DNA of 64,000 bases from NCBI RefSeq assembly GCF_954871325.1, contig NC_088779.1, positions 23,500,846-23,564,845 of the forward strand. The letters are read 5' to 3'. Origin of the DNA: Gordionus sp. m RMFG-2023. Taxonomy: Eukaryota; Nematomorpha; Gordioida; Chordodea; Parachordodidae. Numbering within the stretch: position 1 is the stretch's first letter; each line of letters begins with the position of its first letter. The notes beneath the pieces were generated by a model. It did no database searches and had not been told where the DNA came from. It saw nothing but the letters and a program-made list of their open reading frames with translations. Below are positions 7,232-59,903 of this stretch, in pieces. The position numbers were made by a program, and so were the translations under genes.

Positions 7232-7307
7232 ATGTTATATTATATTTATTTAATGATTTTATTTAATATTGTTATTCCTACAACTAATGCATGCGGTGAA
7301 ACAAAAT
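7232..7307 (+). CDS. MXG1 exon 1: signal-peptide exon
   Basis: The ATG at 7,232 gives MLYYIYLMILFNIVIP and then TTNAC-GETK, with a hydrophobic core and a small-residue cleavage region around T-N-A-C. It ends in phase 1 at a GTAAGT donor. Paralogous exons at 26,832 and 52,025 share the pattern ATG..TTTAATGATTTT..ATTCCTA and, in MXG3, the sequence ACTAATGCATGC. That three-way similarity supports the start choice. Confidence 0.72.
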
Positions 7308-10300
7308 GTAAGTTATAAACCTTTTTTTTACAAATTAATAATGATTATTATTAATGAGGATATATTCTAGCATAATATAATATCAGCATTTCTGTATGTC
7401 ACGCACTTAATTATCTAAGGAAAATGAGGAAATGTTCCAAATTTATTTGATTAAGGGAATCCTAAAAGAGATAAAAGCGCCCTAAATATTTTTTAACTTC
7501 TGAAGATTTTACTTAACTTTTTAAAGCTCAACTATTTAAAATAAAACTAAAAAAATTTTTTTATAGAAAAACTTCATTTATATACACCAAAGAACTAAAA
7601 ATTTTATTTCGACTTTTATTTCATAATACATAGATTTATATAAAACTATTTCACAATTTTAAAATAATACATTGAACGTTAAAAGTAAAACATATATACG
7701 TAATTTAAAAATATATATTAAAAATATCATGTAAACTATTTGTAAATTAAAATCTATATAAAAACTGTATAATAAAAAAAATAATTAGTATAGTAAATTG
7801 TATGTTGGGTGGGAGGAGGTCAAGAAAGAGAGCCGTGGATGGCAATGCAGTTAGATCTGCATATATCAATAGAAATGCGCTATCTGAGATAGAACCCTTC
7901 CTGTGGGTCACCAGTGATGGCGCGGATTTTTTTTACCAAGGGATTTGAAGAAGTTAGGGCATGATTGCCAAAAAAACCGATTGTGTCGGATACGATTGGT
8001 ATGAGATTGCAATTGGTTAGGGAAGTGTATTTATTAATTTTAGAGTTTTCAGCTCGCACGAATGAGTTGTTATTAAAGGAGGGAGCAAATCGGTCGATAC
8101 AAGTATAATCCCATGCTAATGGAGTTCCATTACTCCATGGTATTAATGTCAAAAAAATTAATGATACAATTTGACATCAATGAGCTCAATGCTTGTATAA
8201 AAAAATATATTTATTTATCATTAAATATTTTAAAACAATTTCTATTCTGTTTCTAGCATAAATAAATTTCACATTTTTCACACTTCAACCTTAAATATGT
8301 GCTAACATGTAGTAAATACTTTTTTTCGAGTGTTGGGAGCTTCTGACCAATGCCCTATATTTTCATATCTAACGTCTGATATTATCTGAGGCAACATAGA
8401 ACCTTTTTTTCTCTTACTAATTTTACCTGCCATTAATGAAGCAGTAACTACTTGAGATATAAATATTATAAGTTTTATAAAAGATTTTTCATTTTTTTGA
8501 AGTAAATGTCTTCGATACAATAATCATCATTCACAATGCAGATATCTATCAAATAAAATATTACTCGAGATAGAACCTTCTATCTTTGATATCTACTAGC
8601 ATTCTACTAGCATATCGTTTAAATCTACCCTTTAAATTTAAGGCCTATGGATCTGAAAAAATTTTTCTCCGCCAAGAACCACCGCCTCACATCTTCTATT
8701 GGGTCGATACCATTGAAGGATTTAACATGAAAAAATTTAACCATTTGACAATTATTATATCAGTATTAGTATCAGTTTTATAATCGAAACTATCTCTCCT
8801 TTTTCTTGAGATCGCGGCTTTTCAAATTGAAACTTTTAGGCCATTGGATTGTATGGTACCAATTATATATATATATACCTATTCTCAAAATTAGGCAAAT
8901 TTGATTAGACGAAGAACTCAACTTATTCCTAATCCTGTTTGTGTTTTTATAGTTAGATTTCCTATATACACTTTAAAATCATAAATAATTCCGGTGGATC
9001 CTGCAATAGCAAATATTTTTATACCCCATTAATGGAGATTTGATTTTATATATTGATTCAATGTATTCTTACCCTTAAATGATATCAAAAATTCGTCAAC
9101 ACAAATATTATCCTCCATTTCAATTTTTTTCATATTGGCCTGAATAGCGGATATAAACGGTCTTACTTTAAAGCATTTATCATGCCCTTCTACATAACAT
9201 GGAATTACTATTGTATTATCATTGAGATGCAAATATTATCGTGATTGTTCGAAACGGTATCAGTTACCTGTGGAAATTTGAATTCCTGAGACCAATATTA
9301 GCGATATGATGGAACCCTTACCAGTGGATAAAATAAATAAATACCTATTGTTCAATCTCATTTTTATCGGTTTTCAAAGATTGTTTTGAACGCGAAATAA
9401 ATTTGATTGCTCAAACATTATTATCTAATATATCAGAATCCGATATGATATTGGAATGTTATTTTGGGGATTAGAAAATTTTTTTTAGAAAATGTTGTAT
9501 CAAATGATTCAAAATTTTTTAATAATCATGAATATTATCAAGTTCTATGTGGAGTGAATTTGTGGGCGAATCTATATTTGAAATTATCATTAGGATGATT
9601 TATCCTCACTATCATCAATATCTGTTTCCGAAATATCACCTTCAATTATAATTACTTTATTTGACACCTATAAAAATAAAATATATAAATTCAATGTTAA
9701 TAAAATAATTTATAAAATTCCCAGTTAATTAATTTTGGATTATAATTTTAAAATTATATTTACAAAAATAATTAAAATTTTTAAAAAATATAGATTCATG
9801 ATGACATCTATAATATTTTGTCTTCTTTATAAAATAAACAGTTCAGAATTTTTCAAATTAAAATATATATAAATAATATGTAAAATCAGGGTTTCGAACC
9901 GTTTAGTATAACGGTTCGGTTCGTTCCGGTTTTTAGTTTAAAATTTTATAAAGGTTTTGTTCCATTTCGGTTTTTTAAAAAAAAATCATATCGGTTCGGT
10001 TCGGTTTATAATTTATAACGGTTCTTTTCGGTTTGTTCCGGTTTTTATAAATTTAATTTTAAAAAAAATTAATCATTAACCATGTATATATTAATTTTAG
10101 AGAAAAATCTTTTTAGTTTATAATTTCTTATTTAATTTATCCATGATAATCTAATAGATATTTTTATTAAATTTAGGAAATATAAATTAGACAAATTAGT
10201 TTTTTTTTATTTTATAAATAAATAAGATAAAAACAAACATGCGTAAATACAATAATGAATAAAATAATATGTATACTATACTATTTAGGTTTAAAAAGAG

Positions 10301-13300
10301 AATTCGAACGGATAACTAAAATATTTTCTAATATTTCAGGATTTAATTTAGTTCTCTGGGCAAAGAGTATAAACTTAAGGCTTGAAAATGCTCTTTCTAC
10401 GGAGACCTGCGTAGCTGGAACTGCTAGCACAGTTATAGCTAACTTATAAAGTTCTGGCATACTATTCTTTACATTTTCCCAATAATTCAATTTTCTAATC
10501 TCTCTATATTATCAAATGACCGAATTATATATTCTATTTCTATACATTTATTATAATTTTCGATGCCCTGAGAATTATTCTTATTAAGACTTTCATGCGA
10601 CTTAAATAAATCTTCAAAATCATCATCTAAATTATCCTTCGAATACGAACACGTAGGCATAGTATTTAGAATTTCAATATTCTGATTATTTAGATTTTGT
10701 ATCAAGTTCCAAGTTTTACAAAGATGTTTTCTGGCGATCTCTCTTTCTTCAAAAGTTAAAAATACATTATATCTAGGGTCGAGATAAATAGCAGAGCAAA
10801 AAACTTCATTTTTGAAATTTATTTCTCGTGCTTTCATCGTAGAAACTAAAATTCTGGCAAATGGAGTGTCTACTTTACTCGTTTGCATGAGACATTTGAT
10901 CCACGCAGCATAAAAATCGCCCATTGTCAATTGTTCACTTTGTAAATATTTTGTCAAAACATAAGCTGGATATAAAGCTTTTAATATGTCACTAATTATT
11001 TTCCATTCATTCTCTGATAAACATTTTCGATATTTCTTGGCAAAAGCTTTTTAACTCTAGTAATCTTTCCAACATTAAATAGATAGAGTTCCATCTTGTG
11101 CAACAATCTATTAGTGATTTTTTCAAATTTAATTTTGAGATAATAGCCATTGTTGTCTGATTTCTTATTTTTTTGCAGATGTTTCTTGCTTTATTTATAA
11201 TGACAATTTCATTTGAATTTTTAATGCAATCATTAATTGCTAATTGAAATGTATGTGAAGCACATCTAATACCTATTAATATGGATCTGGCATTTGGTGC
11301 AAGATTAATATTTTCAATATTAAAAAGTTCTTTATTTTCATCATGAATTATATCATTTTTATTTAAATCGTCATTGTCTATATCATTATTATTTAAATCA
11401 TCATTAATTAAATAATCGTTAAGGTCATCATCTTCATCATCTTCTTCATCGTGTAGTATTAATAGCTTAATTAACTTAATCATATTTGCTGCATTATCGG
11501 TGGTTATTGTGTAAAACTGCTCAATTTTTATTTCATATACTTTTAGAACATCTAGAATAATTTTTTTAAGATATTCTGATGTGTGTCGTTCTTTAATCAC
11601 TTTCATGCATAGAGTCCTTAATTTTATTTTTCCGTTATTTATAAATTGAATATTGATCCCCAATATGGACCTATCATATCTAGTTGCTATATCTAATTTT
11701 AACGAATTAAGTTTTTGATATACTTCAGGAAAATTAAAATTTTAAATTTAGGTTAATAATTTAAAACTAATTATTTTTAAAACCATTTTGAACCGGTTTA
11801 AACCGGTTCAAAATATTTATAGCGGTTCGGTTCGCTCTTTTAATATTCTTCATAACGGTTCGGTTAAGGTTACGGTTCAGAAAATCATAGCGGTTTATTC
11901 CGGTTTTGCGGTTCGGTTCGGTTCGAACCCCTGTGTAAAATCAAGTAATTTAATAAAAATCGAAAGGAAATATAGTCAAAAGTTACGTGTTAATAAAATA
12001 AAAACAAATGCTATTTTTTTTTGATTATTAATAAAATTGAATTGAATATACATTATATATTCATTTTAAAATGCAAAATTAAATCAATGAATGGTTTTAA
12101 ACGTTAAAATGTTACATGTAATATGATTATGTCAAATTAACTCTCAGAACTTTAATGGAAGTGAAAATATTTATAATCATATAAAAGCTATTGACTATAC
12201 AAAAAGCTATCGCTTTTAGTCATTAGTTTTCGAGGTGTATAGAGCCCAATAAATTAAATATGTTGACCGGAGCCCTGGCTGCAGAGCCGTTTCTTATGGC
12301 TTACCTTAGTTTAGGACTAAGGGCACACAAAAAAGCAATAAATTAAATATGTTGACCGGAGCCCTGGCTGCAGAGCCGTTTCTTATGGCTTACCTTAGTT
12401 TAGGACTAAGGGCACACAAAAAAGGTTTAATATAAAAAAGGGTGGCAATATCGATGATTAATTTGAAAAAATAATTAGATCAATTATATGGAATGGAGAA
12501 TAGAATGACACTTTCTAAGTTCTAAAGACACATCATTTATTCGCGTTTTCTATAAAGGTTATAGTAACAAGAATTCCATTAAAAAATATATTTTTTTGAC
12601 AAACCATTTTATTATTAAATGGTTTTCTATTTTATTTAATAACTAGAGCAGGGTGGTATTACCAAATAAGGGACTCCGACCTCAATGTGAGTATTAGAAA
12701 CATGCTCATTGGCCTGATTTGAGCTTTAATTATTATGGATTAATAGTTTTGTTTTCATCAAAAATAGGTATAGGGGATAAGGCTTGGCAGGTGAGTGAGG
12801 ATTGGTGTTATAATTTTTCCCGGACAATCTTATAAATGAGAACATTATAAGAAACATCATATTACAACAAAAAAATGGGAGGGAAATTTATTTTAAAAAT
12901 TTTATTACACAACTTCCCCCCCCCCCCAACCAGAACACAATATCTGTCCTCTTGATAGATTAACCAAATATATTTCAGATAAACGTATATATTTAATTGT
13001 AGATGATATTGCAATAATTGTGATTTGTTGAAGGCTGCAAACTATTATCAAATCATAGCAAATATTATGATCTTATGTATAAAATTGCATTGATAGAGAA
13101 TATAGATTCTGTTTTTTATTAAGAATTGCAAAGCTATAGGCTAAATTGTCTATGGAGACGTTATTAATCTTGAATGATTTTTCGAAAAAACGATGGCAAA
13201 AAAAAGTTCTGCAATCAGGCTCCCGAAGGCTTAAAGACGATTCCAAAATATATAGCGCCAAAATTAAACAAAATAAGATACTGAGCAAGTGGTAAAAATA

Positions 13301-16300
13301 CATCTTTTCCAGATAAATTCTTTCATCTGAAAATAAACTTATGAGAAAAATATATTGAAAACATAAATTTTGGCAAAAAAATAATAAATACTAATCTGTA
13401 ACTAATGTAGGCAGAGATGATGTCCCACCATTTAAGTCAAACCATATTATGATGGATGTTATTATAGTATAATATAACTAATTCAAAAAGAAAGATAAAG
13501 GCTCCAGTAAAGTGTGTGATTGAAAGTTTTGAAAGGTTGAAGGATATTTTGATATGTCTAGAATAAATATTATATTTGTTATTTTTTATATATAACTAAA
13601 ATCAGGTAGTATTAATCCCCAATCTCAACCCCTACCCAAGCCACATTCATGTAAGATATGTTTTTATTTAAAATTCTAAAAAAAACAAAAATTATATATA
13701 AATATATTCACAATAAAATTTTTTTTTGAAAAAATTGTTATTTTCAATATGGAAATAAAATTTAACCAGGTCGTCATGGTGATATCAACTGCATTTCTGA
13801 ACCTGTAAAAAAACGGCCACCAGGTGAATCAAACGTTTTGAAATTAATTCTTATTACTATCATATATAATTATTCAAATTTAGAAAATTATAAAATAATA
13901 ATGTTGATGAAAATTGCTATTTACATTTATACTCTTCATTATATAAATACAATATCTTTTAAGTTATAGGGCAACCAAAAGTTATAATTGTCAGACCTAT
14001 GCCTATATCTCCTTCATGTGAGTATTTATTTTTTTGTTCTTTTTTTGTAAAAAAATCTGTTATACATTATCAAACAATGGTAGTCTTTTTTTTGTGAAAA
14101 AAATATCATTTTCGTGGCATGTAAACTTAAACAAGGTGAACGTGGTAGCAACTGCAATTCTAAAGTCAAGCCTATACAGCCTTCAAGTGAGTCATGTGTT
14201 TCTAATTCATTCCTACGATCATAACTCAAACTTTAAAACAATAATATTTGTGAAATTACGATTTTTATTTTTGCATATAAAAACCAGATGGTGTCAACCG
14301 AATCAGGCTTACTCCACTGTCACCTTCATGTAAGCTATAAATTTTTAATTCGATAAAATTATAAATTTTAATTGTTTATGACAGGTACTGGTATCAACTG
14401 CAAACCCAAGCCCAAGCCTAAAAGGCCTCATGGTAAAGCAGGTGCTTTAAATTATATTCGTATTATTCAGGCTTAAAATATAAATTATTAACACGAAAAA
14501 TTGCTATTTTCATTTATTCTCCACAATAATAAATCAAATATCTTTAAAGTTATTTATACCTCAACCAAAAGTTATAATTCCCTAACCCAGGTATTTAAAA
14601 TTAAAAAATTTGAATATAAAAATATTAGTGAAAAATTGATAATTTCATTTATTTGCATATAAATTAAACCAGGTGGTATCAATCGAATCGGAAAACGTAA
14701 ACGCAAACATAAGCTAAGGCCTCCTTCATGTGAGACATGTGTTTATTATTCTAGATTTTGATGATAAATATTTATTTTCCTTTATTTGTATATAACACAG
14801 GTAGTCAGAATGGTTTGAACTGTATTTCAAAACCCAGGCCCAAACCGCATTCAGGTGCATCATCTGTTTCTAATTTAATCTATCATATTATTTAAACCGG
14901 AAAATTTATAATATAATAACATAAATTTATTTGAATATAAAATTATACCAGGTGATATCAATCGAATTCCCAAGCGCCCTATGCCTAAGCCTCCTTCATG
15001 TGAGCCATGTGTTTATTATTCTAAATTATAATGATAAATTGTTATTTTCCTTTATTTGCATATAACTTAAACAGGTGGTCATAATGGTTTAGACTGCATT
15101 TCCCTACCCAAACCCAAGAATATATCGCCTCTAGGTGTGCTATATATTTTAATTCAGTTCTACTAACATATTATTTAAATTTAAAAAATAAAAAAAATTG
15201 ACATTTTCATTTACTCTCTTATATAAAAAATTAGATATCTTAATAGGTATCCGTCAACCAGAAGCCCCCAGACCTCCTTTATCACCTTCGTGTAAGTCCT
15301 TTAAAAAAAATTTAAAATTATACATTGATTAAGATAGTATCCTAATTTATTTTACATAAAAGGGGTATTTTTAATTGCAATGATATTTAGGTCAGAAAAT
15401 TTTGATAGACCTCTGCAACACTAGCAAATAATAAATAAGATAAGAGCTTCTGAGATGCGAGACTAACCATTACCAATCGCAAAACGCGCACAATATATTA
15501 AATCGTTTTAAGAATTAGTTGGTTAAATGTATCATAATAGGAAATTTACGAGTTTATCAAAGATCATCATGCTAGTTATGCCCAATATATAACCTGTTTT
15601 CTTAAACTTTAAAAATCCAAGTATCTTTAAAAAAATGTATATATTTTAAGTAAGCTACATTTTTATTATAGTATTTCTCCAAATATTTGTTAATATTTAA
15701 GAGTTTTAAGAGGGTTTTAGCAAAATCCCGTTCTTCTCTATGTGTAGTATTTGGAGAAAAGCTAAAGCGCCCATGGAATTTGTATTATCTGAATTTTATA
15801 GACCGTTTTGTTAACTTTTGAATTTGAATTAATGTTTAATAGATTTTTCATATATTTAGTGCACCATTCAAAAACATGGTGTCATTTTTTTCAAAATGAA
15901 AGTAATTTTTTTTTGCAAAAAAACAAATATTGATTTTTAATCACCAGAATATTCAATTTATATTTAGAAAATGTTAAAGTTAAAAAAATTTTAAGTTATT
16001 TTGATTTTTAAAATTTATTTTAGTAATTTAGAGTTTTTTTTGCTTTGAAAAGGATTTTTCATTTTTTTTGTTGATATAATTTATAATGCCGTGAATGAAT
16101 AATTTTTATCAATCACCATTTAAATTTTTGGCCATATCGGTTAGTCAATCCGGTCCTAATAGACTAGCCCCTGAACCGGACCGGTAGTTGGACCACTTTT
16201 ATACCATAAACCTGGTCTGTCTTTAATCCTAGTCGGCCATTCGTAGTAGTCTCAATTCCTGATTGAAATATTTTAATTGACTTAATTAATTAGCATATAT

Positions 16301-19300
16301 TGACTGCAATAGCGTTTTTCTTTTCCAGGAGAATTTTTATTGATTCATTTCTCCTGTCAAATTTAAAAATTTATCAAGAAAAACACTATATTAAGTTCTA
16401 AACAAGATAATATATGCCTTGTTAACAAATATTTTTTAAAGAAGGGGTTTCACATAAAAAAGGCTTTTTATTAAGGCGATGCGAGCCATCATACGCATGA
16501 GCTGAACTGGCTAATAAAAAGAAACAATATGCTCACCTCCATTAATTCCCAAGCACCTCTACGAACAAGGATATTAGTATTTATATATGAAATATTTATT
16601 TTTTTATTTTTTTATTTATTTATGAAATATGATATTTTAATTAAAATGAAATTATACGCTATTTTTTTTAGAAAACGAAAAGAAATCTTTTACCAGTTTA
16701 TAACGGTATCAGACTGGATTTTACAGATCTTGGGTTCCGATTGGTCTGTAAACATTAATTAGTTTTGGCCGCCACCTTTACTAATTAAATTCTGAAATCA
16801 TAAAAATAAAAAGTCCAAAAATATAATTCTAGGATTAAAAATTTAACATTAGATTTTATTAAATCTTTAGAATTCTGAAAGTTTTTAAAAAATTTCTACA
16901 TTTATTCAACAAAAATGAAAATCAATCAAATTAAACAGCTTCTATGAATTATAGTATATCGAAGGGTAAATAAAAATACTTGCCAATATTTAGATTGATA
17001 TTTTTTCTCCATGTAATTCTTTAAAAATAGTTATAAATTATTGCGCACAAACACATTATTATATTATGATAGTATAATAGGTGGCTCATATGTAGCAAAA
17101 TTTATCTAGCAACGGTTACTGATACCCATCAGATCATATTCTAAACAACAATCAAATTGTGTCAAAATGTTATAAAGAACCCACTTTTTAATATATATCA
17201 ACGGAATCACGTAGTCGAGTCCAATCTACTATAAATATAATTCCCCAAAGGTACGCGAACAACCAAGTCGGCTTCAGAAGAAAACCATGATCCTTGCCGG
17301 AGTCGAATCTAGGTTTAGCGTATTCGTGATCAACTCACTTACCAATTAGAACACAGATGATTTAAGGAAGCATCAATTTTTTTTCATATACAGCCCAAAA
17401 TCAAAAAATTTTATTTCTAAACCTAGTTATTATTTTTATATTGTTTGATATAAAATAATTGGTAACTATCCAAAAATTTAAAAAAAGTCATGTGGAGTCC
17501 TCCAATTCTGTCAGGTTAATATTCCCAGCCCGGAACTAAACCATCTTATCCAGGAAAAGTTTATTGACTTTAAATTCGATTCTGAAATCATTTTATTTTT
17601 CAAACTTATTAAATAAATTAAAAATAAATTATTAGTATAATAATATTTTAATTTATTTTTTGTTTTAATAAACAATACAAGTTCAAAATCTCAAACCTCG
17701 AACTAATCCACCTTATTCAAGTAAGAGTCAATTTTTGATGTTTTTAATTTGAAATCATAATATTTTTCACTATAAAAATTTTATTTTTAATAAAATAAAT
17801 CATATCCTAAACTATGGAGTCAAAATTCTTCGACACAAAACTAACCAGCCTTATCCAGGTGAGAATTCATTTTAATATTTTATCAACCCTGAAATCAAGT
17901 CAAGGATAGAAATGTCCTAGACATAAAAACCTACGTATAAATAGAAACTGGACAATAATATCCCAATTTTTAAGAAAATTTCAAAGGCTTAAAAAAGGCG
18001 ATTATTTTTTTTTAAAAGAAATGACTTCTTTCTTCATTTAAACATTAAACAAATTTCTAAAATTAGGGTATAGTGTCTCTTTGTCTTAGGTACTTTTGTC
18101 CGGATCTTTTTGCCTTAGGAAATATATGTCTCTGATTCATTTTTATATATTATTTTTTTATGTAATAAGATATCTCCAAACCTAAACAACCAAAAGGCAA
18201 AATTCTAGGACCACAAAATAGACAGCATAATAAAGGTGAGTGAGACATTTCCATATTTTTAATTTAATTCTTTAAATTATATTATCAAACATCCGGATTT
18301 GAATTTAACTAGTTTTTTTTTTAAATTTATACTCCGGCACTGATTAGATTTTATGGTGACAAAAAGTTGGCCCAATCCTGCTTGATGATTATTAAATTAT
18401 ATAACTAAAATTTATTCTTAAATAAATTGACCCGAAAAAAATTATTTCCGAAATGCGCTTGAATTTTTTTTTTCCTTTTAGTCAGGTCTAAATTTTTAAA
18501 ATTGTACTATAATAACGAGCTCTGGTTAACCCTAGTGCACGGTTCGATTTGAGCCGTTTTTTGAAAACAGGTAACTCAATATTTTAGCCAAAAAAATATT
18601 TATTGCCCTAACTAAGCCTCGAGATTTTGCGAATAGATGCCAAAACCTTTGTGCCGGACAGAATCTTCTAATATTTCTCTGGATAATATTGAGTTGGCCG
18701 TTTTTAAAAATAGGTTCAAATTGAGCCGTTTAACCCTAATTAGGCCTGTAGGTATATTTGAAAATTATAATATAACATTGATAAAAAAATATGAATTGCA
18801 TTCACATATTTTATTGATATTGGTTTATAAAAAATTTCTAAAACCTAAAATTAAAAGGTAGCAATTCTCAGTCCCGCAACTAGACAATCTAATTATTATG
18901 CATTTTTAATTCATCTGGTATTAAGTTTATTAAAAATTCAGAATCAGATGATGAAATAACAACATCCATGCTTACGCTAATCGTTAAGATATAAATAATA
19001 ATATTCAAATTAATAAACTAAGGACAGAAATAGTAACTGGTTAAAAAAATTAAAATGTGATAGAGTAAACAGCTGATTTTCTTAAAAAATTTTAATTAAT
19101 TTTTTTTTTTTAACAAACAAACGTAAACTCGTTCGTTATAAAAAAGAAACGCGTTCACATTTAAGTTCGTCAAAAATAAAAGAACGCGAACGCCGTCTAA
19201 TTTTTTCAAGAAAAACGAACATCTTTCTTGAACGTGTTCGTTTACAACATTACATTTTAATGAAGTATACGTGTCATAATTTATGCGAATATAATGAGTC

Positions 19301-21280
19301 ATCCTGATTGTAAATCTTCCAAATAATTCTACGATTAAGGGGCCATTTTTGATATTTCACTTGGCAATGCATTCCAACAATCTACCATGTAAATATCCGA
19401 AGAATTTGTCATAAATTTCAAAATTTATATGAAAAATATGATGTAATATGTAAATTCATATAAATTAAAAATAGCTTCAAAAGATAAAATTATCCGAAAT
19501 TCTTAGGGTAAATGCTCTACACATGTTGGATAGAATTCACTTCCGGTAGAGTTAGTTTTTTTTAAATTTAAATTTCGCTCTAGTAAATGAATGTAAAAAT
19601 AAAAAGTTTCTAATCCTTAGGTAAGAATTTTTTCGGGTAAAGTCATTGTACCTGGATAGTTTATCGATATATTATTATCAATTTCGTTATATTGATAGTT
19701 GTTTCACTTCGGACAGACCCTTCATATACTATTAAAAAAAACTACTCCATTTGTATCTGAATCAATATAATCGAGAAGATAGCTAAACTAAATTTTTGAG
19801 AATAATAGAAAGATAGGGAATAGGGTTAATATTAGTATTGTTAAAAGGATCGATTCAATTTTTAAAAATGTTCCTATAAAAATTTTAGCCACAATAATAT
19901 TGGTTAAGCCTCGAGATTCTGCAAATAGCGCCCAAAAAATCTCCAGGCTTACATAATAGTATTTTGGCTAAAATCTTAATCAGGCCGTTTTAATAAATCG
20001 ACTCAAATCGGGCATTTTAGCAATACTAGTTAATGCATAATATTAAAATATGTTTAACAAAATTTACGATTTAATAATCCTAACTATAATTTTATATTTT
20101 TAAAAAAAAACTGAATTTGGTATATCTACTGTATAAGACACATATTAACTAGAAATTGGGGATTCTGAAAATATAGATATATATAATTTTATACTGCTAT
20201 AAAATTCTCAATTGCTCAAAAAAATATAATAAATTTATAAGTATTAATAAAAATATTTTTACCCCAGTCATCCAAACCTTACCGAAAGAGTTAATTACAA
20301 TTCATTATTTTTGATATAATAAATAACACTTAACTAAACTCTTGCCTCTACCATATCTCATTATAGGTGAATCATTTTTGTGTTTTTAATTAAATTGTAG
20401 GAAATCATATTTTTCCAAAGAAAATAATAAAATACAAATATTTTCAAATACTGTTATAAATAAATATTAATAATTTTCTTTTCATTTTTTTTTCCATAAT
20501 AACAAGGTGATATGAATGGGAAATGCAAACCTAGACCCTCCAAACCCAGAATCCCCAACTCCAAACCGTTTATTCCTCCAGGTGAGTTATTCTTCACATA
20601 TCAATTAAAATCTAAAATAATTTTTTTGTTATCTTTACCCGTAAGATGGCACAAGTAACGGAAAGTTGGTGCCAAAACCAATACCAGAAGTAAATAATCC
20701 ACCAGATTGCTCTTCAGAAAATATAGATTCAGAAATTGATAATAGCGTTGGTAATGCAAATGGCCATATTAATTATCTAAAATAAGACCTATTTAAATTA
20801 GCTTCACATTTTTAAAAAATATATTTGTAAAAATTATAAATAAATTAAATGTATATTGATAGGGAATTTTTTTTTAGTATTTACATCTATTTTATTAAAT
20901 TGAATCACAGATACTGTAAATATTGACAAATCAGAAGATAGTTCTGTTGACAAAATCTCCGCACCAGAACCGAACCTTCCATTGGACTCAATCAAATCTC
21001 CAAATTCACATGTCGATTCCAGCACTGAAGATGAGAATGGTTAAAATTTCTCGAAATATGACCTTACCTATTTAACTAATACTATCTAATCAACTTTATA
21101 TTATTTTTTAATTATTAAGAAAAAATATATTATTTATTTTTACCTTCGGGAATTTATATAATTATTAGTTAAATTTTTAGGCAATTTTTAATATAAATTT
21201 TATTGATCGTTCCAACAGAAGCAGAAACCTGCGCTCCAATTTGTAATCCTCGTTCGCACAAGCGGCACAAGAATCTTTAA
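7232..21280 (+). CDS. MXG1: secreted micro-exon protein, 18 supported exons
   Basis: No known family recognised. Exons: 7232-7307, 13770-13823, 13970-14017, 14136-14186, 14288-14329, 14385-14432, 14673-14729, 14801-14854, 14952-14999, 15075-15134, 15247-15291, 17682-17720, 17820-17858, 18170-18235, 20507-20581, 20646-20750, 20911-21039, 21219-21280 (stop). Every intron is in phase 1 and every internal exon is a multiple of 3. The joined frame is open for 365 codons, and none of the 17 junction codons is a stop. Layout: N-terminal signal peptide; about 16 modules rich in Gly, Pro, Lys and Arg, many with N-C or N-R near the start and P-P-S/G at the end; an acidic Ser/Glu/Asp stretch; and a Cys-containing basic C-terminus. 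Intron 1 (6.5 kb) contains piggyBac and hAT insertions and may hide more exons. A secreted, fast-evolving protein is inferred from structure only. Confidence 0.72.
7838..8152 (-). pseudogene. Retroelement-derived fragment (fossil)
   Basis: A short minus-strand stretch resembles the segment that follows the reverse transcriptase domain in a widespread class of metazoan retroelements: the pattern PWSNG..L.WD.TC..FAPS and, farther on, a GDP..G..L-like motif. Only this piece is present and it is broken. Whether the parent was a LINE or another retroelement cannot be decided from so short a piece. Confidence 0.4.
8302..9660 (-). mobile_element. Decayed piggyBac transposon
   Basis: Minus-strand pieces follow piggyBac transposase order. 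An acidic N-terminal stretch (ISETDIDDSED) lies at about 9,595-9,660. The segment KCFKVRPFISAIQANM followed by ICVDEFLISFKGKNTLNQY at 9,029-9,232 matches the conserved kvRP...vDE.m..FKGr...kqY region. FAIAGSTGIIYDF lies at about 8,960-9,020. A C-terminal piece at 8,302-8,520 ends DVRYENIGHWSEAPN, matching the ..H-W-P.. ahead of the Cys-rich tail. The copy is interrupted by several stops and gaps and is certainly inactive. No terminal repeats or TTAA duplication were confirmed. It sits in MXG1 intron 1. Confidence 0.72.
9887..11933 (-). mobile_element. hAT transposon, 2,047 bp, with TSD
   Basis: An exact 8-bp target duplication TGTAAAAT flanks it (9,879-9,886 and 11,934-11,941). Ends are CAGGGTTTCGAACCG and, inverted, CAGGGGTTCGAACCG. 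About 150 bp inside each end are dense repeats of the CGGTTCGGTTCG word. The transposase is on the minus strand: YDRSILGINIQF, TTDNAANM and RCASHTFQLAI in 11,007-11,720, then CTRWNSIYLM; a middle piece at 10,487-10,957 (YLDPRYN); and the C-terminal hAT dimerisation region VPATQVSVERAFSSL at 10,281-10,490. At least one frameshift separates the first two pieces and no BED finger is seen, so it is a defective copy. The clean TSD implies a moderately recent insertion. Confidence 0.9.
12247..12424. repeat. Exact 89-bp tandem duplication
   Basis: Two identical 89-bp units, 12,247-12,335 and 12,336-12,424, with no mismatch seen. The unit is visibly more GC-rich than its surroundings (TTGACCGGAGCCCTGGCTGC and GGACTAAGGGCACAC). 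I do not recognise the source. Confidence 0.9.
13770..15291 (+). CDS. MXG1 core: ten tandem micro-exons
   Basis: Ten exons of 42-60 nt separated by introns of about 55-240 nt. Two module styles tend to alternate. One is G-x-x-N-G/C..C-I-S (GSQNGLNCISKPRPKPHS; GGHNGLDCISLPKPKNISP). The other is G-D/G-I-N-R-I-x-K (GGINRIGKRKRKHKLRPPS; GDINRIPKRPMPKPPS). A third, shorter type lacks Cys (GQPKVIIVRPMPISPS; GIRQPEAPRPPLSPS). A decayed copy of the third type lies at about 14,555-14,587, where the acceptor AG is gone. Introns share sequence at both edges, so the block grew by duplication of exon-plus-intron units. Confidence 0.75.
15292..17681. other. MXG1 intron, about 2.4 kb
   Basis: No exon recognised. 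At 16,130-16,250 there are GGTCC/CCGGACCGG words typical of the hAT element at 61,039, probably a remnant. A tRNA-like segment lies at 17,225-17,365. A decayed micro-exon relic at about 17,490-17,530 ends CTTATCCAG but is followed by GAAAAG instead of a GT donor. Confidence 0.4.
17225..17365 (-). repeat. tRNA-like / SINE relic
   Basis: On the minus strand an A-box-like AATTGGTAAGTGAGTTG is followed about 30 nt later by a B-box-like AGATTCGACTCC, the spacing expected of a pol III internal promoter. No cloverleaf with paired acceptor stem was convincing, so a tRNA-derived SINE or its relic is more likely than a functional tRNA. Weaker B-box-like words occur at 1,330-1,430 and 38,645-38,745. Confidence 0.35.
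17682..18235 (+). CDS. MXG1 mid-section: three micro-exons
   Basis: Exons 17682-17720 (39 nt), 17820-17858 (39 nt) and 18170-18235 (66 nt). The last begins ATATCTCCAAACC directly after an AG and encodes ISKPKQPKGKILGPQNRQ. It belongs to the same exon family as MXG2 exons at 31.6, 32.9, 39.1 and 39.8 kb. The 39-nt exons end T-N-Q/P-P-Y-P/S. Repeated intron text between them shows local duplication. Confidence 0.6.
18541..18738. repeat. MITE family A, copy 2
   Basis: Near-palindromic element with inverted ends of about 60 bp: GGTTCGATTTGAGCCGTTTT on the left, and GGTTAAACGGCTCAATTTGA when the right end is inverted. The interior carries CCTCGAGATTTTGCGAATAG. It lies in an MXG1 intron. Confidence 0.75.
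18895..19252 (-). mobile_element. hAT fragment related to the element at 47.3 kb
   Basis: CAGAATCAGATGATGAAATA and the following TTCAAATTAATAAACT match 47,980-48,060. The right part repeats GAACGCGTTC-type words and ends CGTTCGTTTACAACATTA, like the end of that element. It is truncated on the left and has no complete transposase. It lies in an MXG1 intron. Confidence 0.6.
19836..20026. repeat. MITE family A, copy 3 (degenerate)
   Basis: Left end TATTGTTAAAAGGATCGATT, right end GACTCAAATCGGGCATTTTA. The interior has AAGCCTCGAGATTCTGCAAA, as in copy 2. It lies in an MXG1 intron. Confidence 0.6.
20507..21280 (+). CDS. MXG1 3' end: last basic module, two acidic exons, terminal exon
   Basis: Exon 20507-20581 (75 nt) is a long basic Pro module (GDMNGKCKPRPSKPRIPN). 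Exon 20646-20750 (105 nt) passes from P/K-rich to acidic and ends ENIDSEIDNSV. Exon 20911-21039 (129 nt) is acidic and Ser-rich (DTVNIDKSEDSSVDKIS, then DSSTEDENG). The terminal exon 21219-21280 encodes ETCAPICNPRSHKRHKNL and stop. MXG2 has the same order: last P/K module, then acidic exons ending in E/D-I-D-x-S-V, then a short Cys-bearing terminal exon. Two Cys in the last exon suggest a disulphide-stabilised tail; this is inference. Confidence 0.75.
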
Positions 21281-21339
21281 TACTTATCACTATTACATTA
21301 TTGCAAGTATATATATATATAAGAACTTTTAAATATGTT

Positions 21340-26831: not shown

Positions 26832-42088
<15,257 letters not shown>

Positions 42089-52024: not shown

Positions 52025-52091
52025 ATGATACGTCATTGTATTTGTTTAATGATTTTGTTACTAATTATTATTCCTAGAACTAATGCATGCT
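52025..52091 (+). CDS. MXG3 exon 1: signal-peptide exon
   Basis: ATG at 52,025; MIRHCICLMILLLIIIPRTN then A-C, an Arg/His N-region followed by a strong hydrophobic core and T-N-A-C at the likely cleavage site. GTAAGT donor in phase 1. It shares ATTCCTA and ACTAATGCATGC with MXG1 exon 1. A longer frame across 51,889-52,077 is in another phase and has no homologue in MXG1 or MXG2. Confidence 0.75.
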
Positions 52092-55000
52092 GTAAGTTAG
52101 TTATAAATGAATTATTTTTTTTAAAAAAAATTATTTTTATTGTAGATGAATAAATTCTATCTTATTAATAACTATTATTTATAATAATTAGGAAAAGAAT
52201 AGTAAATATGGCATAATATAATTGTGATATCTCTAAATAAAAACTAGTCTTATCAACCGAGAAGCAGGGGAGAAAATTGTTGAAAATGTATTTGATTGAG
52301 TAGCAGGGGTTAGATGAATGTATCAGAGTTTAGTTTATAAAAGGGAATAAGGCTGTTGATTAAATAATATAGTTTGAAATTGTTGTAGCATTAACTTTTC
52401 TCTTAACACTTGAAATATACATACATTTTTATCAATAATCCTTAGCATATTTTTAAGTTCTTTTACAAATTTTAGTCACTATATGACCAGGGAAGGGAAA
52501 TAAAATTTGCTATTATATATCTTGAGGAGGGACGGGTTCAGGGAATAGGCAGTAGGCAGCCAGGGGTATGGATTAAAAAAATATTTTTAGGGGATAAATA
52601 AAAATTTTGCGAAAATCATAAAAAATTGCCAGTATTTTTTTCCATGAAACTGCTTTAACCTATGCGCAATTTAACAAAACCTTCCTTTTCACAAAGTTAA
52701 AAAACTTTAATAAACTTATTTTAAATTTCTTTTTAATTTTTTAAATAAAAAAAATATTTTGGACATGCTATTATTTTTTTTTTCATAGCCAGTAATCTCT
52801 TGCCCGCCACCAGTTAGAGTCTCCAAGATTATTGTCTATAGTTTAATCGTTTACCAGAGGAAGAATTAGCACGACGGAAATTAAAAAATATTGGCATTCT
52901 CTCATTTAGGAATTTTGATTATTAAACGTGAATTCTTTGCTATACAAATGTATACAAAACGATTAATTATTTTGTTTGTTCATTTTTGTTTATAATCATG
53001 ATTTAACGAGAATGAGCATGCGTCTTCAAAATTTTAACCTTCGAGATTGAAAAACGTAATGTTAAAGTATTGAGTATCTGCATAATTGTGGGTAAATTTT
53101 ACATCCGGTAGCGTGAGTGGGTATACAGGCCTGTGCCCCATCTCTATGTTATATATAACGTAATATTTTTAAAAATTGATGAATTTAAATCAAATTTGGT
53201 TAAATTATTATATATATTTTTTTTTCCCCCATTTGTATAAATATCGGTTGTATTGATATCGGTGCATCTATGATATTAATTTTTTTTTATTAGAATTCAT
53301 TTTTAAATGTATGTGAAGAAGCATAAAATAAAAAGGCAAAAATTTCTTTAGGAAAGGGGAGCCCCAAATGCTCTTTATCCTCCATATAGTTCAATTATTT
53401 TTTTGGCTTTCTTGTTGTATCCTATTAGCTTATCAACAAAATTTATTTAACATAATGCACATTATTATAACATATAGAGAATTGGCTGAAGAAGTGAATT
53501 GGAGGAAATTTTATTTACAAAATCCCCCAAGTTAAGCAAGTGCGAAGAAAAAATATTTCCACGCCAAATTAAATAAGGCATATTTGAGCCTAATAATCAA
53601 GGCATATTGAATCATTTAGCAATTCTTTCAATTAAAAAAATGAAATTTTGAAAATATGGAAATTGAAAACGTAATTGATAATTTTGACGAAAAAACAATA
53701 TATAAACAAAGGAAAAATGTTAAATTTCGGAATAAAATGTATAAAAAAAATTAACTTCACTACCCAGATGAAATAAAAAATTTTTAAAAAACTATATTTC
53801 TAAATTAATAATTTTTCAACATAATGGCTATGATAAGAATTTTTTAGAAAAAAATATTTAAAAAAATGAGTGATAATCGGGATCTAAATTTATCATAAAT
53901 AATAAATGGCTGCAGTATTTGCATGCACTTATGCATGGTATGAAGGTAGGTGACAGGTCTCTATTTTAACTAAAACCGTTATGACGAGGATGATGGTTTA
54001 ATTTAAAATAATTATACAATCTGGAGAGCTTGCTACTATTATAGTATGAGTGATAACTTTGAAATGAGCAAACGATATGTTTTATAAAATATTTAATTTA
54101 AGAATAATTACTTCTTAGAGTAAATGACAATTTATTGATAGGGGAGACCGAGGGTTATATGATCCATAAAAAATTGAAGGACCATAAAAAGAGCAGGCAA
54201 AACCGATTTATACATAATATAATTCTTTACATATAGGGCACTATGGTAGGAATTGATAAAATTTAATAAAATATAATAAATTCAGGAATTTTGAAAAGCA
54301 TCTGGGATACCATATCTTTTAATTTTGACATTTCTCTGCTATATTTTATTAATTTTTATATAAATGTGTTTATCCTAAATGAAAATATATTATTCAAATA
54401 TGATAAATTTTTATGATTTAAATGTTAAATCTCAAGGTATATTAGGTTTCAAATAATTTCATACCTACCAGGAAAACTCTTCACAGGTTTCCCCTAATTT
54501 GTATTTTTAAACGGCTCTCGATTTAAGCCGACTAAATTAAAACGGCTAATATTTTAGGCAATATATTATTGCCTAAACCTCTATTTTGCTAATAGATGTC
54601 CAAATCTTTGGGCCATCAATGATTAAAACTTCAGGCTTGATTAATATTTATATGGATAAAATATTTCGCCGTTTATAAAAATCGGTTCAAGTCGAGCCTT
54701 TAACAAAACCCCTAATTTTGTTTCTATTTATGTTTTTATGTTTTTCATTTTATTTACAAACAAAACATAAATCAGTTGACAAAAGCCATAATCATCAACA
54801 AGGTGAGTCATATATTTTTAATTTAATTATATTATATCATATTATTCGAAACTTAAAAAATAATAACGGTGTAATATTGTTATTCCAATATATTTGCATA
54901 TAAACTTAAAATCAGGTGGTTACAACCATCATCCCCAGCCGCCTCAAGGTGAGTCATTTAATTTAATTCTATTATTATATTATTCAAACGTTTAAAAAAA

Positions 55001-58000
55001 GTTTTAAGAAATAACATTGGTAATATAAACTTAGAACCAGGCGGTTACAACTACCGACCTCGACCCAATCCCATGTTACACAATCATTACTATTTAAATT
55101 TTAAATTTTTTTATAAATTACCAATATTGTTATAGAAAAAAACAACTGTCCATTTACATATTTTAACTTAAAATCAAATGGTTAAAACTATCCCTAACCT
55201 AAACCCAGACCCGTGTTACCTTAAGGTGAATCATGCATTTCAAAGTTAAAAAAAAATTATAAGATACAAAAATATATAACAGTCATTTTCATTTATTTGC
55301 ATATATATAATGTATCAGGTGGTTACAACTATCCACGACCCGAATCCAGACCTAGACCTCACGGTGAGTCATATATTTTTAATAAAATCATTACTATTCA
55401 AACTTTTTAAAAAAATTATAAAATATATTCACATTGATAAAGAAAAACTGTCACATTCTTTTATTTACATATATAAAATGCAAATAAGGTGGTTACAATT
55501 ATCCCCGACCCAACCCGCCGCAAGGTGAGTCATATATTTTTAATTCTATTCCAAAATCATTATTATTCTTTAAAAAAAATTAAAAAATACTTGCACATTG
55601 GTAAAGAAAAACTGTCACATTCATTTATTTACATATATAAAATGCAAATAAGGTGGTTACAATTATCCCCGACCTAAGCCGCCACAAGGTGAGTCATATA
55701 TTTTTAGCCACCTCAAGGTGAATCATTTATTTATAATTCAATTCAACAGTCATTACTATTCCAATTTTGCAAAAAAATTATAAAATACTTACTCATTGAA
55801 TAAAAAAAAACTGTCATTTTTATTTATTTGCATAACCCAGGTAATTTTAACGGTTATCCCCCACCTAGACTCTATCCACCTTCATGTGAGTCACGTGTTT
55901 TTAATTCTTATAATAATAATAATAATAAATAATTTAAAAAATTGTTCTTTTTATTTATTTGTAAACAAACTTTTACCAGGTGGTTATGGTGGCAACTGCA
56001 ATCCTCCCCCTCCATGTGAGTCACGTGTTTTTATTATCAATTCTCGTACTATCATATGATTCACACTTAGAGAAATTAAATTTATGAATAATGCCTTATA
56101 GTGAGCCCGATTTACACAAACGATGCGAAATTATTCGTGTGTAATTTACAAAAGCAAGGCCAATAAATATGCATAAGAAAAATGATGAAATGGCTACAGC
56201 TGTTTAACGTATATATTCAAAAAGTATTACAGCTATGGCAAATCAGCTGTGATTTCGCTAGGTATTAATTTCGCATCTCTAGAGTTGAGAAAACCGCGCT
56301 TACTGTAAATGCAGCGTAATAATTTCTATTTATTCTTCACTATATTAAAATAAAAATATTTTTTAAAGATAATCCAATAATTATTCCTACCTTCACTGTA
56401 CCGCAGCCTCCAGGTAAGCCATATTTTTAAAATTTTATTTCTACTATTATGCTAATTACATTCATTCATTTAATTAATAACATTCGTCAAAAATTGACAT
56501 TTTCATTTATTCTTTTCAACGCTTTATAATTTAAAATATATTTAAAGTTACACAGCCGCCACCTCCACCTCCGCCACCTCCACCTCCACCACCACCACCT
56601 CCACCTCCACCACCTCCAACACCTCCACCACCTCCACCAACGCTGCCACCGCCACCGCCAAAAATTATAATTACTGTACCTCCAACGACTAGGAGTGAGT
56701 CAACTTTTATTTCAATTCTACACCAATTGAGTAATAGTAAATTCTAATATTTGTATAGTACGAATAGCGAATAATTTAAAAGAATCGAATACGAATAATT
56801 AATTATTTGATCCTTAAAAAAATGTTATATATATTTATTTTTTAAAACCTGTAACACAAGCCCAATTTACGATGACCTATGCGAGTGAGTCAATTTGTGT
56901 TTTTTTATTACATTTTTTAAATATAAAAAATTTGTCAAATAGTCAGTTCCGTCCCTAACATTTTTTTTCCGCCTTTAATAGACTCCTGCGTAAACGAGAG
57001 AACGCCTTCTAGTGGTTAAAAAAATTATTTAGGGAGGCTCTAAATTTTGATTATCTTGGAATTAATTATTTCCGCTTTTTTGCTAATTTTGATTACGATT
57101 TTATCTTCTTTTGACAATTTAAATTTAAATTTCCATTTTTTTTGGTAATTTTTTATTTATATAAATACAAATTTAAATTCGAATTTTCTTATCATTTTTA
57201 TCTAAATTAAGGTTTTTTTTAAAGAGGGATTTCCTTTTCACAATCGGGGGCCAAAATGTTTTAGCAGAATTTAGATTTGTTGCAAAAAAATAAAATAAAG
57301 GACACGCTTTAGATTTAACGTATATAACTATCAGCCTCCATTTCTTTTAATTCAAATAAGCCGCCACTTTCTCACCCCCCCCCTCTCCCCCACTTTAATT
57401 TTTTTGTGTCGCTTATAGGTAATATCTAACAAAAGTAAGCAGGAAAGAATAAAACTGCATATAGTATTAGAAAAAAAATTTGGTTATAAATTATTTTTAT
57501 TTTTCTTAAACAGAAGAGACTCTTAGTACTATTCCATGGTGGAAAATCACGAAAGGTAAATCATTTTGTATTTCTAATTAAATTCTGAAATTATTTTTTG
57601 TAAAGGCGGTGTTCAAAATATAAAAAAAAATTTATTAGCAAACTCAAAATTTTATCGAAAAAGAAGAAATAAGTTTTTTTTTTAAATATAAAATTCAGGC
57701 GCGTACGCAGGAATTTGGTCTGGGGGGGGGGGATAATAAAATTTTTTAAGAACTATTATTGTTTTTTAAAAATATCAAGCATAAATTTTTTAGGACTAAT
57801 AACTATTTCTAACACACAATTTTAAATTTATGTGAATTATAAAAATATTATATGTAAAGAATCACTTAAACAACCCAAAATAGAAATTTGAATTTTTTAA
57901 AGTTTCTTAGGAATAATTGCATTAAAATCCAATCTTCGTTTTGATTCAGCTAATTTTTCAATTATCTCATCCTTGCTTGTCGTCAAATGCCTATGAATAT

Positions 58001-59903
58001 TCAAAAGATCCAAACCTTTCAATCTACTTTCAGATGTTGTACTTCTTGGTATGTTTTTCAGAGACCTGCAGGCCCGGTTCCCGGGCTGGACAGTATTTTA
58101 ATTTTTTTAAATATACCCGGGCCGGGCCCGAAATTTTTTTAAAGAAACACCCAAGCCGGGGCTGAAAATTTTATTTTAAAAAAAGCCGGGCCGGACCTGA
58201 AAATTTTTTAAAAAAAGCCGAGTCGAGCCTAAATATTTTTTTAAAAAAACCGGGCCGGGTATGAAAATTTTTAAAAAAAACCCAGACCGGGCCGTAAAAA
58301 ATCTTTAAAAAAATCCGGGCCGTGCCCTGCAAATGGTACTTCTGCAGGCCTCTGTTATTCTTAAAAAAGAGAATGTTCTCTCATTAGTTTACTAATGGGA
58401 AGAGTTTATAAACCCTTTTAATACATTGGGAATTTGATCTAAAATGTGTTTGAAATAATGCAGAGCATCCATAGCATTTTTTGGGACTATATCAACCATT
58501 GTTAATCTTATAAACAAAGTTATTCAGCTAGTAAGGCATCATAAGATACTTTAACATCTTCGTAATAAAAATCTAACAAATATTTTTTTTTCTATCACCA
58601 TCTGAAAAAGGTTGGGAAGGCTTTTGTTGAAGTAATATTTGCAGATTAGTAAGTGCTGCATGATGAATTAAAAATTCATTTATTTGGGTTATAAATGTAT
58701 CTGTATTTATATATACTCTTCTACTTATCCTATATTAATGTTTTAACGATGAGCTTGCCTTGCTACAAGTCGAGGGAGACAAATATTAAACACGTATAGC
58801 TCAGCTTTTGACTCAACAATAAAATATGAAATTCTTCATCAACATTAGCCCTAATTTCCTTGAGTTCTGATAAAATGCTCTCCGCTATTCTCATCTTCTT
58901 AATCAAGTCAATGTCATGTTTTTGAAAAGTAATACTTAGTTGTATAATTAAATAATACATTCTAATGAGAAATAAAATTTGTAATAAGCATTGAATCCAA
59001 TAATTTTCTTGCTTCTGAGGAAATATTTCTTTCAGGCCATTGTGATATTTCAGTAATAGCAAATAATTGGCTCTTCTAACTCCTTAAAAGCTGTTACTGC
59101 TTGATGGCAGAGACTCTATCTCGTTGGAGAAGGTTGTAATTTCTTTTTCCCTGTTGGACAAGAAGTTTCAGAAATAATAATTATTTGACTAATTTGAAAA
59201 TGGTAGATAAATATTACGCCACTAAAAATTTGAAAATAATAAGTAAATATTACGCCGGAAAACTTGAAATCGAAATTAATTGATAAAATAACTTAGTAGA
59301 TAAATGTGATAATAAATGCAATTAAATATATATTTAATATGAGATACGAATAAATATTAACAAATATAGATTAATATAAACAATAATATTTTTGAAAAAT
59401 ATATCTGGCATCTGCATTTTTTGGCTTTGGGGGGGGGGGGGGGGGGAAGGCCCCGCTGCGTACGTCAATGATAAAATTAAAAACATGTCCGATGATTTTT
59501 TTTATAAAATTTCAAATATTAGCGATTTCATTAAAATTTTAAAACTTACTTCTAATAATTTTGAAATTTTCAAATATTTTAAAAAAAATTTTGGATATAG
59601 CCTACACCATAGAAAAAATTATCAATTATTTGTACAAGAATTATATATATTTTAAAATTTTATTTTTAATGAATGTCTCAAAACCACAAGTCACTACCAG
59701 GCCACCACCCATTCTAGGTTATTAATTTTGTGTTTGTTTTTTTCTAAATCTGAAAATCATATTTAGGCATTGATAAAAAAAAAATTTTTTAGATAAATAT
59801 ATTTTATTATATTTATTCTTTCATTATAATAAATTTTAATCAAATATCTTTAAAGTTGAACGTGGGCCAGAAACTACATCGCACAGTCATAAAACCCCTG
59901 CAT
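52025..59903 (+). CDS. MXG3: secreted micro-exon protein, 14 supported exons, 3' end not found
   Basis: No known family recognised. Exons: 52025-52091, 54776-54802, 54916-54948, 55319-55363, 55489-55524, 55653-55688, 55841-55885, 55980-56015, 56369-56413, 56548-56694, 56861-56884, 57514-57555, 59691-59717, 59856-59903. All introns are phase 1 and the joined frame is open throughout. After the signal peptide come very short Gly-Tyr-Asn-Pro modules, a Gly/Cys module (GGYGGNCNPPPP), a polyproline exon, and small T/P-rich exons. No acidic or terminal exon of the MXG1/MXG2 kind was found before the window ends, so the last exon is either beyond 64,000 or unrecognised. A hAT element (57,696-59,470) sits in the intron before 59,691. 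Confidence 0.66.
52092..54139. other. MXG3 intron 1, left part
   Basis: No exon supported. The first 130 nt share words with the start of MXG1 intron 1 (TTATAAA..TTTTTT, GGCATAATATAAT). The rest is AT-rich and unassigned. Confidence 0.4.
54140..54495. mobile_element. TIR element family C, copy 3 (short)
   Basis: AGGGGAGACCGAGGG on the left and, inverted, AGGGGAAACCTGTGAAGAG on the right; about 356 bp with no coding capacity. The outermost bases match the right end of the element at 42,330-43,955. It lies in MXG3 intron 1. Confidence 0.5.
54504..54708. repeat. MITE family A, copy 8 (degenerate)
   Basis: TTAAACGGCTCTCGATTTAA at the left and GTTCAAGTCGAGCCTTTAAC at the right form the inverted ends. 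The interior has CTAATAGATGTCCAAATC. It lies directly right of the family C copy. Confidence 0.6.
54776..56015 (+). CDS. MXG3 Gly-Tyr-Asn-Pro micro-exon block
   Basis: Exons of 27-45 nt: DKSHNHQQG; GGYNHHPQPPQG; GGYNYPRPESRPRPHG; GGYNYPRPNPPQG; GGYNYPRPKPPQG; GNFNGYPPPRLYPPS; GGYGGNCNPPPP. The 55489 and 55653 exons and their introns are nearly identical 164-bp units. Two further copies are decayed: one at about 55,041-55,074 lacks a usable in-phase donor, and one at about 55,177-55,222 has an AA acceptor and a TAA where the others read TAC. Only the last module has Cys. Confidence 0.72.
56095..56310. other. MXG3 intron segment, unassigned
   Basis: Less AT-rich than its surroundings (ACAGCTGTTTAACG, GCAAATCAGCTGTGATTTCG, GCGCTTACTGTAAATGCAGC). 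The words recall the 23.9-24.1 kb segment (CGCTGTGATTT, GCGAAT), so it may be a relic of the same small repeat. Confidence 0.3.
56369..57555 (+). CDS. MXG3 distal exons including the polyproline exon
   Basis: 56369-56413 encodes NPIIIPTFTVPQPPG. 56548-56694 (147 nt, 49 codons) reads V-T-Q, then almost uninterrupted Pro with T and T-L breaks, then PKIIITVPPTTR. 56861-56884 is a 24-nt exon (QFTMTYA). 57514-57555 encodes ETLSTIPWWKITKG. The Pro codons are a mix of CCA, CCT and CCG, so codon slippage is not the only source. A polyproline II rod flanked by Ile/Val-rich ends is the structural expectation. Confidence 0.66.
57696..59470 (-). mobile_element. hAT transposon (ZMYM1-like transposase), 1,775 bp, with TSD
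   Basis: Exact 8-bp target duplication ATAAAATT at 57,688-57,695 and 59,471-59,478. Ends are CAGGCGCGTACGCAG and, inverted, CATTGACGTACGCAG, each followed by a run of G on its own strand. Minus-strand frame 58,763-59,062 (IQLSITFQKHDIDLIKKMR and following) matches the helical region just before the C-terminal dimerisation domain of ZMYM1-like hAT transposases. Other parts are short and broken. A family B MITE is inserted at 58,059-58,354. The element occupies an MXG3 intron. Confidence 0.82.
58059..58354. repeat. MITE family B, copy 4, nested in the hAT element
   Basis: Ends CAGAGACCTGCAGG and, inverted, CAGAGGCCTGCAGA. The 296-bp interior consists of seven or more CCGGGCCGG-type words separated by A/T runs of about 20-30 bp. 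No convincing target duplication was seen. Its position inside the 57,696-59,470 element makes it younger than that insertion. Confidence 0.75.
59691..59903 (+). CDS. MXG3 last recognised exons
   Basis: 59691-59717 (27 nt, TTRPPPILG) follows ATGTCTCAAAACCACAAG, a variant of the ATATCTC..AAG lead of the ISK-type exons. 59856-59903 (48 nt, ERGPETTSHSHKTPA then Cys across the junction) has a GTGAGT donor, so at least one more exon is expected downstream. Confidence 0.55.

Follow-up and report, generated by a model that had tools for sequence, protein, structure and literature searches.

The analysed window is a stretch of 64,000 nucleotides of forward-strand DNA from Gordionus sp. m RMFG-2023 (NCBI RefSeq assembly GCF_954871325.1, contig NC_088779.1, positions 23,500,846 to 23,564,845). 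The genus Gordionus is part of the Nematomorpha, or horsehair worms; a Gordionus montsenyensis genome is cited in PMC11603191 and may be that of this animal, and Gordius aquaticus, Acutogordius australiensis and Nectonema munidae are further hairworms named there. The window carries three plus-strand genes, MXG1, MXG2 and MXG3, each of which opens with a hydrophobic exon and continues as a chain of mostly small exons separated by phase-1 introns. The initial annotation had placed such a tandem micro-exon gene family at 7232..59903; the observation was confirmed, and these positions are the start of MXG1 exon 1 and the end of the last in-window MXG3 exon. All three genes were rebuilt via splice signals and frame. 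The gene models are as follows, in window numbering.

7232-21280, plus strand: MXG1, 17 exons, 354 amino acids (aa).
7027..7282, plus strand: region ahead of MXG1 together with most of its exon 1; MXG2 and MXG3 have homologous counterparts.
7232..7307, plus strand: MXG1 exon 1, hydrophobic and signal-peptide-like, paralogous to the other first exons.
13606..15291, plus strand: MXG1 exons 2-12, modules rich in Pro, Lys and Arg that alternate, with Cys or Gly codons at the junctions.
18170..21280, plus strand: MXG1 exons 13-17, basic, next acidic, then a tail that carries C-x3-C plus basic residues; the stop codon is TAA.
26832-42088, plus strand: MXG2, 18 exons, 409 aa.
26832..26886, plus strand: MXG2 exon 1, hydrophobic and signal-peptide-like; the deposited protein P0022 (see below) begins 8 codons later.
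28482..42088, plus strand: MXG2 exons 2-18, including three related acidic exons followed by a short final exon; equal to P0022.
52025 to past the window end, plus strand: MXG3, 14 in-window exons (the last one found ends at 59903), 219 codons, open.
52025..52091, plus strand: MXG3 exon 1, hydrophobic and signal-peptide-like, with homology to the other first exons.
54776..56015, plus strand: MXG3 exons 2-8, an array of Gly-Tyr-Asn-Tyr-Pro modules, partly on a 164-bp unit.
56369..59903, plus strand: MXG3 exons 9-14, with a 147-nt poly-proline exon at 56548-56694; the gene runs past the window.

After the hydrophobic first exon, 16 exons follow in MXG1, 17 in MXG2 and at least 13 in MXG3, in agreement with the 13-17 proposed initially. 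Every modelled intron of the three genes is in phase 1, and the length of each of the 43 internal exons is divisible by 3 (15/15 in MXG1, 16/16 in MXG2 and 12/12 in MXG3). Internal exons measure 24-147 nt, with 33 of the 43 between 24 and 75 nt. The guanine-cytosine content of exons is 0.385-0.485, versus 0.247-0.261 in introns. The long open frames of the initial annotation were indeed found, but at 354 aa for MXG1 and 409 aa for MXG2 rather than at 365 and 383 codons; the claimed absence of stops across 14 MXG3 exons was borne out. Two additional MXG3 exons lie downstream, beyond the window, and several MXG2 exons have weak donors.

Parts of these models coincide with deposited proteins. The database search with MXG2 returned one unnamed Gordionus sp. 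m RMFG-2023 protein only (P0022, 401 aa), identical letter for letter to MXG2 codons 9-409 when exon 13 is placed at 39781-39849, a boundary set after comparison with P0022 (the initial call, 39814, gave 398 aa). When an alignment of MXG1, P0022 and a shortened MXG3 served as the query, P0022 came back together with P0023 (121 aa), which equals MXG1 codons 234-354, again letter for letter; no deposited protein matching MXG3 was found by this search. The deposited models found thus represent MXG1 without exons 1-13 and MXG2 from a later Met. Of the two deposited models found for the cluster, one is nearly complete and the other truncated, which suggests that standard annotation misses such genes. 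A mycorrhizal fungus as the source, an idea that the AT-richness and repeats had prompted, was rejected on the match of MXG2 to a Gordionus protein. Protein searches, whose sensitivity was limited to shared 5-residue words, gave no relatives outside Gordionus at E ≤ 10, no Pfam family exceeded the cut-off for the MXG proteins, and no PDB chain matched P0022 at E ≤ 1. As initially noted, the genes belong to no recognised family.

The initial annotation had held that such open frames were very unlikely by chance in DNA this AT-rich, and the splice donors too exceed chance. The donor string GTGAGTCA has 12 copies in the window, all on the plus strand and none on the minus; in 60 first-order Markov sequences it averaged 0.13 occurrences and never exceeded 1. 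Upstream of these donors, at least 36 nt were open in phase 1 in 12 of 12 cases, compared with 9 in phase 0 and 4 in phase 2. The 43 internal exons contain 0 stops in 827 phase-1 codons (36/870 and 73/827 in the other frames), a count that is not independent because open frames guided the choice of exons. A scan over 264 kb, trained on the called exons, picked out 44 candidates in phase 1 on the plus strand within the 64-kb window and a further 20 across the remaining 200 kb. Within the window the same scan gave 23 candidates in phase 0, which partly re-read the phase-1 exons, 8 in phase 2 and 2-4 per phase on the minus strand.

The three genes also share sequence ahead of their coding parts, as expected for the tandem paralogues initially described. 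By blastn, the upstream region plus first exon matched at 71% over 271 bp between MXG1 and MXG2 (match 26622-26885), at 71% over 247 bp between MXG1 and MXG3 (match 51868-52093) and at 67% over 199 bp between MXG2 and MXG3. A 26-base upstream motif, composed from the three copies themselves, has three exact genome matches, one ahead of each of MXG1-3; when up to 3 mismatches were allowed there was one further genome match, and a reversed control pattern gave 7. This shared region may act as a promoter.

The count of three genes holds for the window, but the family comprises at least four paralogous first exons. The first exon of a fourth gene, MXG4, lies outside the window at 82252-82336 (continued window numbering) and is paralogous to those of MXG1 (72% over 108 bp) and MXG2 (70% over 128 bp). 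At least 3 module-like exons follow it (82252-85689, same numbering). The 3' ends of MXG3 and MXG4 were not found downstream of the window, and no first exons beyond MXG1-4 were found in 100 kb on each side, part of which is masked. Genome-wide searches by upstream region, module array, protein and donor pattern returned the window's own copies and weak partial matches on contig C1, the latter from the upstream-region and module-array searches. The sensitivity of these searches was low (the MXG1 protein missed the MXG2 and MXG3 exons, and the MXG1 upstream region missed MXG4), and a single locus for the family is therefore not proven. The genes multiplied via tandem duplication, upstream region included.

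Duplication is visible within the genes as well. The 164-bp unit of MXG3, which holds copies of an exon and its intron, shows 92% matches; several exon-plus-intron duplicate pairs also occur within MXG2. The introns also contain dead copies: four carry stops, one lacks a matching donor and one is a fragment. The individual duplications and extra copies are as follows.

14647-14896 and 14925-15179, plus strand: MXG1 two-exon tandem duplication, exons 8-9 versus 10-11, 74.7%, block of about 270 bp.
14530..14590, plus strand: dead exon copy of the exon-4 type, with a stop in the paralogous frame.
34311..34400, plus strand: dead exon copy in an MXG2 intron, with a stop ahead of any matching donor.
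35155..35255, plus strand: dead exon copy in an MXG2 intron; a stop falls close to its start, and over 138 bp it matches the region of exon 11 at 75%.
55035..55235, plus strand: two extra MXG3 exon copies, one without a matching donor (as judged by reading the sequence), the other with stops and a lost acceptor.

Paralogous units were compared in 11 pairs, hand-chosen from significant self-match blocks and the 164-bp repeat. Between them, gaps were divisible by 3 in 10 of 12 cases in exons versus 6 of 44 in introns (Fisher's test, p = 1.2e-5). This points to selection for frame, since exon gaps keep multiples of three and intron gaps rarely do. The exons multiply together with their introns, mostly hold frame while alive and decay in place.

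The same remains could mean that the locus is a partly dead or unexpressed repeat array in which leftover exons still look spliceable. At least 4 clear dead copies, the weak donors of several MXG2 exons, the transposons in introns and the fact that exons are conserved no better than introns would all suit such an array. We nevertheless regard it as improbable: the called exons are free of in-frame stops, 10 of 12 exon gaps keep frame, the upstream region is retained in three genes, and deposited protein models exist.

For the living exons of MXG1, a further pattern emerged that goes beyond the initial annotation, namely Cys pairs completed across splice junctions. The last base of MXG1 exons 2-12 alternates between T and G (A once), and 8 of exons 2-11 start with GT. 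Where T joins the GT of the next exon the split codon encodes Cys; otherwise it encodes Gly, or Asn once. With two alternating exon types, the junction codons therefore alternate between Cys and non-Cys. From exon 2 on there are five Cys junctions; in each case the exon that follows has a Cys of its own 5-7 residues further on, so these C-x(4-6)-C pairs are complete only on splicing. A sixth Cys junction, at exon 1|2, stands 5 residues past an exon-1 Cys. Across MXG1 exons 1-13, all 12 Cys residues fall into six C-x(3-6)-C pairs, most of them completed across a splice junction; among 5000 random MXG1 exon orders, 15 left no Cys unpaired and 32 gave six pairs. The same loop was found once in MXG2 and twice in extended MXG3, and the first junction of MXG4, read from sequence, gives C-x3-C.

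This pattern bears on the proposal that any exon could be skipped, gained or lost. The reading frame would indeed be unharmed, but 8 of the 12 single skips of MXG1 exons 2-13 leave an unpaired Cys. Skips of two adjacent exons left no unpaired Cys in 10 of 11 cases. We infer that, in the MXG1 repeat part, gain, loss and skipping act on exon pairs and not on exons one at a time.

The encoded proteins are hydrophobic at their start (best hydropathy over 12 residues 2.25-3.72), contain 12-32% Pro and carry a net positive charge. A single-sequence structure model of P0022 had a mean predicted local distance difference test score (pLDDT) of 38.5; this agrees with disorder, as weak evidence that proves little. 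Overall, we lean towards reading the locus as a tandem hairworm family of secreted, probably unfolded, Pro- and Lys/Arg-rich modular proteins.

Several results weigh against this picture. In the 11 pairs, exon columns were less alike than flanking-intron columns (0.751 vs 0.823 ungapped; 0.695 vs 0.755 counting gaps, p = 0.005), which also fits weak constraint; the higher likeness of introns perhaps stems in part from more chance matches in AT-rich DNA. The Cys-pairing test was designed after the pattern had been noticed. Complete pairing is confined to the MXG1 repeat part: MXG1 exons 14-16 retain 2 unpaired Cys, MXG2 has 2 when its last exon is not counted, and extended MXG3 has 6 of 10.

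A stronger version of the exon-intron difference, with introns far more conserved than exons by global alignment, was dropped because random and decoy flanks average 0.66-0.67 by the same measure. The proportion of synonymous differences (pS) exceeded that of nonsynonymous differences (pN) in 6 of 6 groups compared, figures that come from overlapping pairs and are independent of the flank-identity measure. Positive selection is accordingly not shown, and the diversifying selection implied by the initial annotation did not find support.

What a secreted modular family would do in a hairworm can be considered in two main ways. Hairworms are parasites known to steer their hosts toward water (PMC10380579). 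In the preferred reading, transcripts would be spliced as modelled and proteins secreted behind the putative hydrophobic signal, with disulfide mini-loops spaced along a polyproline-like chain; in MXG1, adjacent exon pairs would be gained, lost or skipped as units. The proteins would work at the worm-host interface, a role that we place slightly short of an even call. The effector, venom and adhesive activities named in the initial annotation are candidate roles. In its fullest form, this idea would make the family an independent hairworm invention, a combinatorial secreted micro-exon arsenal whose adjacent exon pairs are spliced as units and whose disulfide loops arise solely across junctions. 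We put this forward tentatively and consider it unlikely to hold in full. If it did, alternative splicing would determine how many binding modules the host-directed proteins carry as well as how their Cys residues pair.

Extracellular structural or adhesive material, such as cuticle, egg string or larval cyst wall, would offer another use for the same architecture. Phase-1 exons would then be flexible Pro-rich spacers, and Cys loops and Lys/Tyr residues would cross-link the chains in an elastin-like manner. Vertebrate tropoelastin has small phase-1 symmetric exons, split Gly codons, and two Cys with basic residues at its C-terminus, and it appears to be the closest known design. The MXG genes share the small phase-1 symmetric exons, with Gly in several, though not all, split codons, and the C-terminus of MXG1, with its two Cys and basic tail, resembles that of tropoelastin. 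The regular spacing of the Cys pairs and the Gly-Tyr-Asn-Tyr-Pro and poly-proline modules of MXG3 also suit a material. However, MXG1 and MXG2 differ from elastin or resilin in being hydrophilic and in having acidic C-terminal parts, and exons are less alike than introns. The searches gave no sequence relation to tropoelastin, a vertebrate gene, and no Pfam family above the cut-off. We hold this explanation to be possible though not probable; whatever likelihood is left beside the host-interface and structural roles belongs to some other role or to none.

Whichever use applies, the secreted modular family parallels known micro-exon systems in design, as had been noted at the outset for trematode micro-exon genes (MEGs) and aphid bicycle genes. 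The bicycle literature describes nearly all internal exons as beginning at codon position 2, that is, with phase-1 introns (PMC9168663), and the genes as carrying a signal for secretion and some 17 exons, many of the internal ones small, and as diverging fast (PMC9168663, PMC13041983). The proteins are described there as having saposin-like folds and C-Y-C motifs and as modelling poorly without curated alignments, and the genes as occurring in aphids, phylloxerans and scale insects (PMC9168663, PMC13041983). The internal exons of MXG genes likewise all start at codon position 2, but they come from Nematomorpha, not Hemiptera, and encode Pro-rich sequence where bicycle proteins have C-Y-C motifs and saposin-like folds. 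As to the fold, the low mean pLDDT of P0022 does not tell the two apart, since bicycle proteins model poorly too.

For Schistosoma mansoni MEGs, PMC10526429 reports 10-20 short exons whose lengths are mostly multiples of three and lie between 3 and 81 bp (a range also given as 6-81 bp), most being 15 bp. Introns measure 0.1-5 kb, and the products are secreted, some of them described as disordered. The MXG genes are similar in that all internal exons are multiples of 3 and each gene has 14-18 in-window exons; they differ in their longer exons, the internal ones spanning 24-147 nt and 9 of the 43 exceeding 81 nt. Trematode MEG proteins gave no match in the MXG database searches.

True membership in either the bicycle or the schistosome family would account for the agreement in exon phase, number and size range, and the incomplete MXG3 scores 0.979 in the published bicycle gene-structure classifier (cut-off 0.72). 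In the same classifier, however, MXG1 (0.089) and MXG2 (0.005) fail, the genes belong to another phylum, and no sequence relation was found. Bicycle similarity was absent at E ≤ 10 and in PDB for P0022, in searches that divergent members can escape and with the presence of bicycle proteins in the PDB set unchecked. We regard membership as very improbable.

SP7-like effectors of mycorrhizal fungi offer a further comparison. According to PMC11333574, they are restricted to Glomeromycotina, with one conserved intron ahead of the first repeat and a conserved island closing each repeat. They are fungal and without the one-exon-per-repeat layout, unlike the MXG animal genes, and SP7-like proteins gave no match in the MXG database searches. 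The MXG family resembles all these systems in design and on present tests is a member of none.

A literature search for micro-exon genes in Nematomorpha gave none among the matches listed, and the locus would add horsehair worms, an animal phylum, to the lineages with secreted micro-exon genes. The Cys pairs written across splice junctions constitute a concrete rule that is directly testable. Moreover, one window displays much of the life cycle of micro-exons, from fresh 92% copies through older paired units to dead copies.

The surrounding DNA carries mobile and repetitive elements. The 3' region of MXG3 contains a hAT-type transposon with an RNase-H domain (PF14372) at about 61030-63673; a shorter element related to its ends (87% and 92% identity) sits in an MXG2 intron at 36335-37082. 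A search with a transposon open reading frame gave 21 matches at 30-43% identity. Two minus-strand open reading frames at 10487-11663 in MXG1 intron 1 had no Pfam match at E 0.001; we take them to be remains of a hAT transposase. No Rfam match was found in the window. An 89-bp unit (predicted fold -23.6 kcal/mol) is present as two perfect tandem copies at 12247-12424, with no other copy in the 264-kb region. An (AGAA)n array of 69 copies was located at 39992-40269 in an MXG2 intron. Finally, a dispersed short repeat family (69-87%) was observed at 492-672, 18548-18734, 19936-20039, 24148-24335, 30680-30869, 33600-34046 and 54548-54709.

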